From positions 1-35,210 of the IMG/VR virus record IMGVR_UViG_3300005607_000032: a stretch of DNA of 35,210 bases. The stretch is one strand, 5' to 3'. Source of the DNA: a virus. The first letter of the stretch is position 1. The number at the start of each line of letters is the position of its first letter. Positions 2,147-35,210 of this stretch are shown here, piece after piece. The position numbers were made by a program, and so were the translations under genes. Under the pieces are notes generated by a model, which was not told the DNA's origin, searched no databases, and worked only from the letters and a program-made list of their open reading frames with translations.

Positions 2147-2896
2147 ATGTGGGAAGACGTGAAAGATTTTACTGGTTTCCTTTTTGAGAAACTCCAGCGA
2201 CGCTCCGCCGTTGAAGTCGTCAACGGTCAGCCGTATGCACTCAGGGAAGATGGAACGCTCGGTGCGCCAGTGCGCGATCTGGCGCCGCAGTGGACCAAGC
2301 CAACGCTCGAAGTAAGCACTCTGGCAGGATTTGTCGCGGCATATCAGGCGAAGATGGATGACAGGCCGGACAAGGTTGCTATTCGCATTGTGGGCCATCG
2401 CGTCGTTGAGCTTGTGTCGCAGACTGCTGATGACTACGGACGCAGACATGTGTGGCTGCGTGCCAGGTATGTGGATGAAGTGCCGTTCAAGTTTGATTCT
2501 TACTATGAGCCGGAGAAGTTCTTGATTGATTTCCGCTCCAGTTTTTACTTTAACGACAACGCAGTCAAAGTCCAGCAACTCTGCTCGACACTCTCTGCGG
2601 AGAATTCCGTGGCGGTGGCCGATGATGGTATGAGTCAGGTTGTAACGGTCAAGACGGGCACGGTGGTGAAGAATACTGTCACTCTGCCTGCCGATGGCGT
2701 TCCGCTCATTCCCTGGCGTACATTCCGCGACGCTGCTCCGGTTGAGTCGAAATTTTTGCTGCGCATGAAGAGCGTCAAAGATTCGCTTCCGCTTGTGGCG
2801 CTCATTGACATTGACGCAAAGTGGGAGCTCGACACTATGGGATCTATTAAGAAGTATCTGAGCGATGCGCTGCCTGATGCAGTGATTATCGCTTAA
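2147..2896 (+). CDS. DUF2303/YfdQ-like protein
   Basis: This protein has 249 residues, with AAAAGGAGAG a short distance before ATG 2147. The pattern fits DUF2303 (E. coli YfdQ type): an early 'LEVSTLAGFVAAY' segment, a central 'FKFDSYYEPEKFLIDFRSSF' region, then 'SVAVADDGMSQVVTVKTG', a 'PWRTFRDAAPVESKFLLRMK' region and an end 'DALPDAVIIA'. The molecular function of the family is unknown. It occurs in phage early regions near recombination and replication genes. The protein looks soluble, with alternating beta strands, and has no visible catalytic motif. The downstream 440 bases carry no gene. Confidence 0.7.
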   Translation: MWEDVKDFTGFLFEKLQRRSAVEVVNGQPYALREDGTLGAPVRDLAPQWTKPTLEVSTLAGFVAAYQAKMDDRPDKVAIRIVGHRVVELVSQTADDYGRRHVWLRARYVDEVPFKFDSYYEPEKFLIDFRSSFYFNDNAVKVQQLCSTLSAENSVAVADDGMSQVVTVKTGTVVKNTVTLPADGVPLIPWRTFRDAAPVESKFLLRMKSVKDSLPLVALIDIDAKWELDTMGSIKKYLSDALPDAVIIA

Positions 2897-3337
2897 CAAG
2901 CAGCGCCTGAGCATGGTGCTACGCGAGATGCGTAGACGGCCAGTTCGTGGCTCTTGAAACACTCAGGCGTGCAGATTTCGAGATTCGCACAAACAGAGAA
3001 AGCCGGTGGGCTGAGAGAGGCAGCGAGTGCCAGTCCGGGGAGCTACGGGGAATCCGGACCTTGTACCGAGCCAGCGGGTGCTGAAAGTAGTAGCGCAGGA
3101 TGGGCCAAGCGTAGCGCCTCCAACTCACATCGGAGTACATGCCGGCATGGAAGTAAAACGGGCAGAACTGGCATCTGCCCGCAGATATTGATGATGTTTC
3201 CTGCGTGAGCGAGACATGCAGGGACAACATGCAGCGGCTTCGAGCGTTGCTGCTTGCTATCCGCGAGTACGCGCGAACGCTTAATGCCGCTGCATGTTCC
3301 ACGTTACACGTTTTGTTCCACGGTCTTTTTGTTTTCA
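2897..3337 (+). ncRNA. Candidate structured non-coding RNA (inverted-repeat-rich gap)
   Basis: This gap between two plus-strand genes has no convincing coding frame but many exact pairings. CGCCTGAG (2904-2911) pairs with CTCAGGCG (2962-2969) and encloses two hairpins, CTACGC/GCGTAG (2919-2924/2930-2935) and GGCCA/TGGCT (2938-2942/2948-2952). A second possible junction, closed by GGCT/AGCC (3009-3012/3069-3072), encloses GGCA/TGCC (3019-3022/3028-3031) and GTCCGG/CCGGAC (3033-3038/3054-3059). Next are a 12-base palindrome (3138-3149), an 8-bp hairpin CGGGCAGA/TCTGCCCG (3159-3166/3174-3181) and a 13-bp perfect inverted repeat (3226-3238/3286-3298) with an inner 6-bp stem (3243-3248/3276-3281). 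TGTTCCACG is repeated at 3295 and 3314. I recognise no known RNA family. Confidence 0.5.
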
Positions 3338-3505
3338 ATGAAATGGCGTGAGAAAAAGACGAAATGCAACTGCGGCAGGCAATTGCGTCCTGGACAGCGT
3401 ACATGCCGAAAGTGCCATGCGCGATACATGCGTGAGTGGCGCGCGCAGCGTGTCTTTGTATTGAAGAAAGACGTAGAGACGAAGAAATGGTCGGGACGCG
3501 ATTGA
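3338..3505 (+). CDS. Small zinc-ribbon protein
   Basis: The protein has 55 residues from ATG 3338. It carries CNCG followed 9 residues later by CRKCH, then a basic helix 'RYMREWRAQR', a layout common in tiny phage zinc-ribbon or HNH-derived proteins. No good ribosome binding site is visible before the start, so the exact N-terminus is uncertain. Its stop overlaps the methyltransferase start (TGATG), which argues that it is translated. Function unknown; nucleic-acid binding is plausible from the basic helix and zinc site. Confidence 0.6.
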   Translation: MKWREKKTKCNCGRQLRPGQRTCRKCHARYMREWRAQRVFVLKKDVETKKWSGRD

Positions 3506-4545
3506 TGATGAAAGATTGGCGCATTTTGCAAGGCGATGTGCTGGAGCGATTACGGGAGCTTCCAGATGATTCCGTGCATTGTGTCGTTACGAGCCCACCA
3601 TATTGGAGACTGCGCAATTACGGAGTTGTTGGACAGATTGGCGTGGAAAATACTCCCCATGAGTATTTAGAAAAGATGCTTTCTGTTTTTCGTGAAATAC
3701 GTCGCGTGCTGCGCAAGGATGGAACTGCATGGGTAAACATAGGTGATTGTTATGCAGGATCAGGTTGCGGTGGTGGCGGAAGTTATGAATCAGAGCGTCG
3801 TGGCTGGCAGCAGTGCGTAACCAGGCGTGTGCCTCACTTAAAGCGCAAAGATTTAGTGGGAATGCCGTGGCGGTTAGCTTTTGCTTTGCAGGCTGATGGA
3901 TGGTGGTTGCGACAAGACATTGTTTGGTCCAAGCCGAATCCGATGCCTCTCTCTGTTACCGACCGCTGTACGACATCGCATGAGTATATTTTTCTATTGA
4001 CCAAGCGGCCGAAATATTACTTCGACGCTGCTGCTATACGGATTAGGGCCGCTCCTTCATCGGTCCAGCGGTGGCAACAGGATATTGACTCTCAAACTGG
4101 AAGTCTGAGAGCAAATGGTGGTGCAAAGGCCAATGGAACCATGAAGGCTGTTGGCGGACGTCCTACCACGGAATGCCGCGACAAACAGCGTGGACACTCA
4201 CGGCGTCATGCCGGATTCAATGAGCGTTGGGACCATATGACGCATGCAGAGCAGCGAGCATTTGGTGCGAATCGCCGGTCCGTGTGGGAAATTGCGACGC
4301 AAGGGTTTTCCGGAATGCACTTCGCCACGTTCCCGGAGGAAATTCCGCGACTGTGCATCATGGCCGGATGTCCCGAAGGAGGAACCGTGCTTGATCCATT
4401 CAGTGGAGCGGGCACTACTGGCGTAGTTGCTCTGCGTCTTGGCCGCAAATATGTAGGCATCGAAATAAATCCTGAATACGTTGAAATGTCAAAACGCAGG
4501 ATAGAGAATGATGCACCTTTGCTGAACAAAATATCGGGTGATTAA
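3505..4545 (+). CDS. Site-specific DNA methyltransferase (N4-cytosine/N6-adenine, beta order)
   Basis: The protein has 346 residues. It transfers a methyl group from S-adenosylmethionine to the exocyclic amine of a base in DNA. The catalytic motif TSPPYW is at about residue 29, preceded by 'LQGDVLERLRELPDDSV', and the SAM-binding motif DPFSGAGTTG is near residue 296. This is the beta-class order (motif IV before motif I). SPPY is typical of m4C enzymes, but m6A cannot be excluded. The middle (residues 200-260) is an unremarkable target-recognition stretch. Start choice: ATG 3505 overlaps the preceding stop; ATG 3508 and 3487 are alternatives. No restriction gene is beside it, so it is an orphan enzyme, likely protecting phage DNA or marking it for regulation. 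Confidence 0.92.
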   Translation: MMKDWRILQGDVLERLRELPDDSVHCVVTSPPYWRLRNYGVVGQIGVENTPHEYLEKMLSVFREIRRVLRKDGTAWVNIGDCYAGSGCGGGGSYESERRGWQQCVTRRVPHLKRKDLVGMPWRLAFALQADGWWLRQDIVWSKPNPMPLSVTDRCTTSHEYIFLLTKRPKYYFDAAAIRIRAAPSSVQRWQQDIDSQTGSLRANGGAKANGTMKAVGGRPTTECRDKQRGHSRRHAGFNERWDHMTHAEQRAFGANRRSVWEIATQGFSGMHFATFPEEIPRLCIMAGCPEGGTVLDPFSGAGTTGVVALRLGRKYVGIEINPEYVEMSKRRIENDAPLLNKISGD

Positions 4546-6032: not shown

Positions 6033-6234
6033 AGCGAAAGAAGATACTCGCGAGAAGATTATCGGACAAGGAGTAACAGTTGATCGTCAGCCGCTTGCGA
6101 TGTTGCGATATCTCATGATTCGCGGCGAATTGCGCAACCAAATTCATGAACTACGCGGCAAGAACCTTGCTTGCTGGTGTCCGCTAAATCAGCCGTGTCA
6201 CGCAGATGTATTGCTGGAACTGGCGAATCGCTGA
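5992..6234 (+). CDS. DUF4326 C-terminal fragment
   Basis: The last 44 residues ('LRNQIHELRGKNLACWC', then 'PCHADVLLELANR') are the conserved end of DUF4326, with the CWC...CHxDVL motif intact. The N-terminal part of that family, with its 'GRPSKWGNPF'-type motif, is missing, and the reading frame runs back into the end of the DUF5131 gene. ATG 5992 gives 80 residues; ATG 6100 gives 44 and is equally possible. No good ribosome binding site precedes either. It is either a naturally short version or a remnant truncated when the upstream gene arrived. Confidence 0.5.
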   Translation: MAGNGGNFRRSAREAKEDTREKIIGQGVTVDRQPLAMLRYLMIRGELRNQIHELRGKNLACWCPLNQPCHADVLLELANR

Positions 6235-33878: not shown

Positions 33879-35063
33879 ATGACGAAAGTTACTGACACAT
33901 TCCATTTTGGGAATGTAAGTTGTGCGAAGAACCACACGGCTGGACATCAAAACTGTTCAGCGTGTGCAGAGTCGAACAACATGCTGACCGTAGTGGATGC
34001 TGATTTTTCTGTTCTGACGTTTTCGGAAGTGGTGCCGCTGTGGAGACAGCTTCGTAAGCAGCGGCCAAGCCTTAAGCAATATACGCATGCAGCTACCGAT
34101 GGATATCTGCGTGGGCTGGAGCTTTTCTTTGGAAGCATTCGACTATCTGAGATTACGGCAGGTCATCTGCGCGAGTACCAGATCGCGCGCGGTAGCAATC
34201 GCATGATAGTGGATGGCGTCGAAACGCACCCCTGGAGCCGTGCGGCAAGCAACTCCTATATTAACCATGAGCTGAGTGTCCTGGGGCAGATATTGAAGCA
34301 CGCAAAACTATGGGCGAAGATTCGGCCTTACTACAATCCGTTGCCTGTGCCGAAGTGGTCTCCGCGCGAAGTGCTTTCGGAAGATGAAGAGGAATCACTG
34401 TTCCGTATCGCTGCCGGCGATCCGGAGATTGCGCTGGTTTACTGGGTTGCCTGCATCACGAACAACACAACTGCCGCAGGATGCGAGCTGCGCGGCCTGC
34501 GTCTCAGGCATATCTTTCTGCGTGAGCCTGTTTTCGATAAATGGGGCAATGATCTCAATCCATCCGAGATTTACATTCCTTCCGACGCGGTGAAGAATGA
34601 GAGTCGCCCACGAAAAATTGCATTGAACACCACGGCAAAATGGGCAATCGAGCAGTGCTATCAGCGTGCGCTTCGCCTGGGCGCATGCCAGCCCGATCAC
34701 TATCTCTTCCCTTTTCGGGTCAAGCGGAACCAATACGATCCAACACGGCGCGCCTCGAAATGGTGGCTACGCAATAGCTGGAACAAGCTGCGCGCGAAGA
34801 CCGGCTTCCGCAATCTGAATCCACATGATCTGAGGCATCTGTGCATTACGAGGATGCTGGAAAATGGAGTGGATCCAGAGACGGTGCGCGCGATTGCGGG
34901 ACATGTAACAGATGAGATGATGCATTACTATTCGCACATTCGTCGGCAGGCAAAATATGCCGCTGTGATGGCGATAGATCCACGCGCAAAAAAGCCAGTG
35001 CAATCTGTGCGGCCGCTATCGCTGCAACGCTTCGCAGTCATGCATGGGAATCAACAAAGTTAA
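33879..35063 (+). CDS. Tyrosine integrase
   Basis: The protein has 394 residues from ATG 33879. It catalyses site-specific recombination between attP and the tRNA-Arg attB. The N-terminal core-binding part is at about 40-160 ('YTHAATDGYLRGLELFFGS'). The catalytic part shows 'DAVKN' with Lys239, 'PHDLRH' with His316 and Arg319, 'IAGH' with His342, and 'HYYSH', with Tyr351 the likely nucleophile. At the place of box I ('NTTAAGCELRGLR') the usual Arg is not in its standard position; Arg205, two residues after the conserved Glu, may serve. The first 35 residues are Cys/His-rich ('SCAKNHTAGHQNCSACA'). Confidence 0.93.
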   Translation: MTKVTDTFHFGNVSCAKNHTAGHQNCSACAESNNMLTVVDADFSVLTFSEVVPLWRQLRKQRPSLKQYTHAATDGYLRGLELFFGSIRLSEITAGHLREYQIARGSNRMIVDGVETHPWSRAASNSYINHELSVLGQILKHAKLWAKIRPYYNPLPVPKWSPREVLSEDEEESLFRIAAGDPEIALVYWVACITNNTTAAGCELRGLRLRHIFLREPVFDKWGNDLNPSEIYIPSDAVKNESRPRKIALNTTAKWAIEQCYQRALRLGACQPDHYLFPFRVKRNQYDPTRRASKWWLRNSWNKLRAKTGFRNLNPHDLRHLCITRMLENGVDPETVRAIAGHVTDEMMHYYSHIRRQAKYAAVMAIDPRAKKPVQSVRPLSLQRFAVMHGNQQS

Positions 35064-35195: not shown

Positions 35196-35210
35196 CGGCC
35201 TTCTAAGCCG
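35196..35210. repeat. attR core (direct repeat with 1-15)
   Basis: Identical to bases 1-15. Preceded by ACCCA, which provides one further base matching the anticodon stem. Host DNA, starting with the original tRNA 3' part, should continue right of the window. Confidence 0.88.

Follow-up and report, generated by a model that had tools for sequence, protein, structure and literature searches.

In this study, we asked what is encoded in the block at positions 2897-3337 of a viral contig, which lies between phrog_1029, a gene whose function is unknown, and a gene for an N6/N4 DNA methyltransferase. The window, by which we mean the whole of the 35,210-base contig, carries a prophage-like gene set with an integrase, terminase, portal, head and tail genes, and it is an acidobacterial prophage. 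In an earlier note on this DNA the downstream gene had been correctly taken for a methyltransferase; the upstream gene had been called DUF2303-like, a label that found no backing in a Pfam search, where no match was obtained at E 0.001. Part of a tRNA (RF00005 in an Rfam search) is located at the left end of the window. The same 15 bases, CGGCCTTCTAAGCCG, occur at 1-15 and 35196-35210, that is, at both contig ends, and fall in the anticodon region of this partial tRNA, with the integrase gene at 33879-35063; this repeat is probably a prophage att core, or else the contig is circular.

Separate elements within the block

It has been proposed in the earlier note that the block folds as a single multi-branched phage RNA of about 440 bases. 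The inverted repeats on which this proposal was built were all recovered (2904-2911/2962-2969, 3159-3166/3174-3181 and 3226-3248/3276-3298), and a branched phage RNA is indeed present, with covariation and no counterpart in Rfam; however, it is confined to an RNA of 80 bases, here called RNA A (2896-2977), and the block is made up of this RNA, an independent RNA B (approximately 2984-3150), which also occurs without RNA A, and two hairpins, all of them separate elements. The comparison with shuffled sequences that had been suggested gave a mixed outcome. It favoured the long hairpin at 3226-3298 (z -7.3) and the first junction (2902-2971, z -2.7, with 2 of 200 shuffles folding equally well), while for the block as a whole the signal was mild on the plus strand (z -1.9; minus strand, z -2.8) and the second-junction region (3004-3141) gave none (z +0.25). 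The first three-way junction (2904-2969) is real, though the deciding evidence is covariation rather than folding energy.

Searches with the DNA of the block in phage and plasmid collections gave no match, and relatives were therefore sought in genomes and by DNA patterns. Among 300 genomes of the same family, one (G141, locus L002) matched over most of the block at 79% and likewise carries the match 3′ of a phrog_1029-like gene, a second (G030, locus L003) matched in the second region only and a third (G169, locus L004) gave a short match. In L010, an IMG/VR relative of the upstream gene, the first junction is present in diverged form.

RNA B, on the plus strand, holds the second-junction region and is known from three loci in all: the window at 2984-3150, L002 at 476-702 (approximately 79% identity) and L003 at 1465-1675 on the minus strand (approximately 78%), the last of which has no RNA A. 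In the three sequences, 12 predicted pairs differ on both sides, and RNA B would probably be a branched RNA of approximately 170 nt, the fold of which is uncertain. As regards the second junction proposed previously, the hairpin at 3033-3059 is conserved and shows one compensatory change in the three sequences, but the hairpin at 3019-3031 is disrupted in L003, and only with G-U pairs allowed does the 4-bp closing stem persist. Pattern scans of viral contigs for RNA B returned either nothing or just L159-L162, which look like coding DNA, and L158 was rejected as a short match of chance appearance.

An 8-bp hairpin with exact arms and no T run is located 3′ of RNA B (3159-3181, plus strand; arms 3159-3166/3174-3181), and a hairpin of different sequence occupies the equivalent place in L002 and L003. 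The long imperfect hairpin (3226-3298, plus strand) has 23-nt arms (3226-3248/3276-3298) that are 87% complementary, and it is a separate element with a very high predicted stability. L002 has, at approximately 1130-1180, a shorter hairpin the arms of which are similar (CATGCAGCGG...CCGCTGCATG), and L007 contains a 33-base match to the foot of the long hairpin at 1501-1533. Strong hairpins are also found directly 3′ of most phrog_1029-like genes that lack RNA A (L009, L011, L012 and L014-L017), often as a tandem pair and with, for example, GTGCGGCGG...CCGCCGCAC as the arms.

RNA A is a structured RNA family of tailed phages

RNA A in the window, with its 8-nt flanks (2896-2977, plus strand), is matched by the family covariance model R1 with 64.6 bits and an E value of 1.2e-17, a score that is not independent as the window sequence is one of the 22 from which R1 was built. 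The outer stem P1 is formed by an exact 8-bp inverted repeat (2904-2911 with 2962-2969, both arms on the plus strand), in which seven of the eight pairs change on both sides in relatives, with covariation at the 3′ arm as at the 5′ arm. It is followed by the core strand GCAUGGUG (2911-2918), which is near-invariant apart from a C-G to A-U double change in a second subtype, and three bases of which (C2912-A2913-U2914) pair with 2954-2956 as a 3-bp inner stem. The P2 hairpin (2919-2935) has 6 bp, all six of which change on both sides in relatives, and a GAGAU loop at 2925-2929; across copies this loop is kept as GAGAN, where N is any base, with GGGAT in one copy as the sole exception. An AC linker (2936-2937) leads to the P3 hairpin (2938-2942/2948-2952; linker and hairpin together 2936-2952), the length of which varies and in which covariation is weaker but present, and the junction is completed by the near-invariant core strand UUGAAACAC (2954-2962) with its AAACA bulge (2957-2961). 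Thus RNA A is a compact three-way junction in which an outer stem and a 3-bp inner stem, the latter offset by the conserved AAACA bulge, carry two hairpins, one capped by GAGAN and the other variable. A line-up by eye of the first relatives gave the core order GCATGGTG, GAGAT-loop hairpin, ACGG, hairpin, TGAAACAC and closing stem. The family is recognized by invariant GCAUGGUG and UGAAACAC strands, a GAGAN-capped P2 and a closing P1, all of which are present in the window at 2904-2969.

The strands GCAUGGUG and AUGAAACAC remain near-invariant while the outer stem, P2 and P3 vary by compensation. When 22 sequences were aligned with plain MAFFT, the structure proved to be 89.5% paired, and the covariation score was 0.704, compared with 0.204 for shuffled alignments (0 of 500) and at most 0.201 for slid structures; the tested structure had been named after the sequences were viewed, which makes the slid control somewhat generous, but the margin is large. 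The covariation in homologues that the earlier note had asked for is therefore found in the stems of RNA A. Model R1, built from this alignment, matched approximately 60 distinct phage loci (68 places in a search of 74 loci), and among 64 distinct rows of an alignment fitted to R1, 18 of the 22 pairs are changed on both sides. The alignment contains 30 G-U and only 5 A-C cells, and the flanking long ORFs are both on the strand of RNA A in 23 loci and both on the opposite strand in three, which indicates that the structure is strand-specific and tracks transcription, as expected of an RNA. RNA A is almost certainly a structured phage RNA, and its family has been selected as a fold on this strand.

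A scan of viral contigs for the core pattern yielded 25 contigs, in most of which the stems match, and a scan that left the loop free retrieved copies nearly all of which have a GAGAN loop. Two odd second copies hinted at a change of C2912-G2956 to A-U together with G2915 to A, and when this subtype 2 (GAAUAGUG...UUUAAACAC) was then scanned for, L167-L170 were found with intact stems, these four loci being close relatives of one another. Pattern matches without proper stems (L021, L026, L031, L082, L084, L085, L086 and L171) were set aside as apparent chance matches, and L096 and L097 from the genome scan have no more than weak model scores.

The earlier note had recognized no known RNA family, and the Rfam search it recommended agrees, as Rfam 15 gives no match for the block. 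Likewise, for RNA A no family matched better than chance, whether the sequence searched was that of the window, of 15 related loci or of the copy with the best score; the matches below threshold were to microRNA and snoRNA models and chance-like. No description of RNA A was obtained from openly licensed papers, which were searched for the letters of its motifs as well as by topic. RNA A thus appears to be a new and uncatalogued family, a novelty that is judged at the level of RNA families and, on the literature side, from openly licensed papers. The closest system in context is that of the theta ribozymes, which are HDV-like, associated with phage tRNAs and folded as a nested double pseudoknot; they have a catalytic C and are cleaved at the 3′ end of the tRNA (PMC10879173). 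Like RNA A, these are small structured RNAs of tailed phages, often located beside tRNA genes and otherwise between co-oriented genes, and rare in bacterial genomes (PMC10879173); however, the fold differs, and RNA A is a plain three-way junction that can precede or follow a tRNA and persists within coding genes. A direct test for a theta- or HDV-like identity failed, with no HDV match in Rfam, which perhaps does not hold every theta variant, and a covarying structure that is a plain three-way junction. The RNA C and RNA D of phage T4 are also small non-tRNA RNAs in a phage tRNA cluster, but they are 139 and 119 nt long, and identity with RNA A was rejected as R1 matched neither rnaC nor rnaD, even with filters off.

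Genomic placement and copies within terminase genes

The fold is kept in dozens of otherwise unrelated phages. By model, RNA A is present in five of 396 genomes of the phylum of the window, and the strict core pattern is found in just seven stretches among 84,980 genomes, two of them weak by model; RNA A is therefore no copy of a common host RNA of the same sequence. The bacterial records with RNA A include Terriglobus, Streptomyces, Amycolatopsis and two Planctomycetota MAGs. Most contigs have one RNA A, and in L067, L056 and L095 neighbouring copies occur, of which the second is diverged or of subtype 2. One carrier (L027) has three RNA A copies and, on the other strand, a group I intron at 2454-4276 that lies a few hundred bases away from the first copy, and another (L038) also has a pistol ribozyme at 6052-6115 on the minus strand.

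The genes beside 58 loci have almost nothing in common and include those for portal, DNA polymerase, helicases, primases, HNH nucleases, integrase and methyltransferase, which argues against a fixed cis target. The regulatory role for the flanking genes suggested in the earlier note is thus not upheld, as relatives of RNA A adjoin quite different genes and even sit inside coding sequence. In five loci (L019, L028, L029, L032 and L083) tRNAs adjoin RNA A, and in L076 the neighbouring tRNA is on the opposite strand.

The large-terminase gene of L025, L030 and their relatives contains RNA A in frame. A full-length match is present in 15 of 55 terminase relatives; others (such as L116-L123) have a shorter version of the same loop without RNA A, in L112 the copy looks decayed and has lost P2, and in L111 and L115 the core is altered. 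RNA A also occurs in frame in another ORF (L062) and in a second terminase (L073), where the reading phase differs. Among the coding copies, covariation persists with 30 double-change cells and a score of 0.302 versus 0.137 (0 of 500). A protein reading was rejected: the core is read in different phases (as 'MVSEE' in L025 and L062 and as 'GHGAPGE' in L073) and the stems vary by compensation, so that the encoded peptide is not the reason for its conservation. The persistence of a covarying RNA A in frame within terminase also argues against efficient self-cleavage and against the control of one particular gene.

Possible roles of RNA A

Judging from its placement and from the lack of a common neighbour, we tentatively prefer, at somewhat less than an even chance, that RNA A works independently of position, its target probably being a host or phage factor reached in trans. 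RNA A would be transcribed as part of the operon, tRNA cluster or gene in which it lies, and would be active within the carrier transcript or once trimmed out of it, as a folded module recognized by a putative host or phage factor; for example, a nuclease or an RNA-binding protein of the infected host might be sequestered or inhibited by it. RNA anti-CRISPRs are phage-encoded mimics of CRISPR repeats. They would share with the proposed RNA A the action of a phage RNA in trans on a host factor, but they imitate host CRISPR repeats, whereas the core of RNA A has no common counterpart in bacterial genomes. The trans reading is drawn from placement, and an element that serves in cis whatever transcript it is part of would look much the same. 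Such an element, which might shield the carrier transcript from exonucleases, guide processing between genes and tRNAs or modify the polymerase, is a possible though less probable explanation: the neighbours of RNA A are co-oriented genes and tRNAs, with the flanking stop or start codon at times just a few bases away, and RNA A acts on the transcribed strand and occurs in coding RNA too, but its position relative to genes is not constant. Antitermination in particular gains no support, as a link to intrinsic terminators was looked for and not supported, with four in 45.8 kb downstream and two in 43.6 kb upstream.

The small size of the junction, the near-invariance of its joining strands, the variety of its gene contexts and its adjacency to tRNAs, as in theta and other small phage ribozymes, might also be expected of a new ribozyme, self-cleaving or with some other catalytic activity, that acts in the processing of tRNA precursors and phage transcripts. 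We consider this unlikely, given that the in-frame copies in the large terminase, and that in the second terminase of L073, are intact and compensated where cleavage would destroy the message, that the tRNA in L076 lies on the other strand, and that none of the hammerhead, HDV, pistol or other ribozyme models in Rfam matches RNA A. The compact fold and invariant core would suit a ligand-sensing, riboswitch-like cis-regulator of adjacent genes as well, but the downstream genes are of no common class and RNA A, instead of occupying leaders, is found in the middle of operons, amid tRNAs and within genes, making this quite improbable. Least credible of all is that a Ro60 (TROVE) protein binds RNA A as it would a Y RNA. 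Like Y RNAs, RNA A is short with paired ends and a bulged stem, and a TROVE domain is encoded in three of 26 RNA A phage contigs (two above the cut-off); in one 138-kb contig (L164), which has two RNA A copies that differ in subtype, a phage TROVE (Ro60-like) gene at 951-2570 on the minus strand lies approximately 3.3 kb from these copies and on the same strand as RNA A. However, RNA A has no Y RNA match in Rfam, and no TROVE gene is present in 23 further viral contigs, in five genomes behind such loci or in the genome of the window itself; none is present in 32 control contigs either, but these are mostly smaller. TROVE was therefore rejected as a general partner of RNA A, and its absence from most carriers also counts against the trans reading in so far as TROVE is a candidate partner there.

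Returning to an action in trans, a bolder and more doubtful version takes RNA A for an RNA device used throughout phages and without a likeness among catalogued RNAs. Phages of several host phyla would carry it almost anywhere in the transcribed genome, even in frame in terminase, and its junction core may serve to disarm or recruit a host factor that is conserved, with the two subtypes working as a pair in some phages. A fold that is compensated in dozens of unrelated phages, absent from Rfam and nearly absent from bacterial genomes points to an unrecognized step of phage infection, and the covariance model and the two subtypes make RNA A directly searchable and testable. The filled, decaying and empty sites in related terminase genes are a natural experiment on its purpose. 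One of these terminases, L111, has a long GC-rich inverted repeat (GTCCGTCCGGTCCCCCCC...GGGGGGGTGGACCGGACGGAC) at approximately 2200-2270, in frame and in the same loop as its decaying RNA A.
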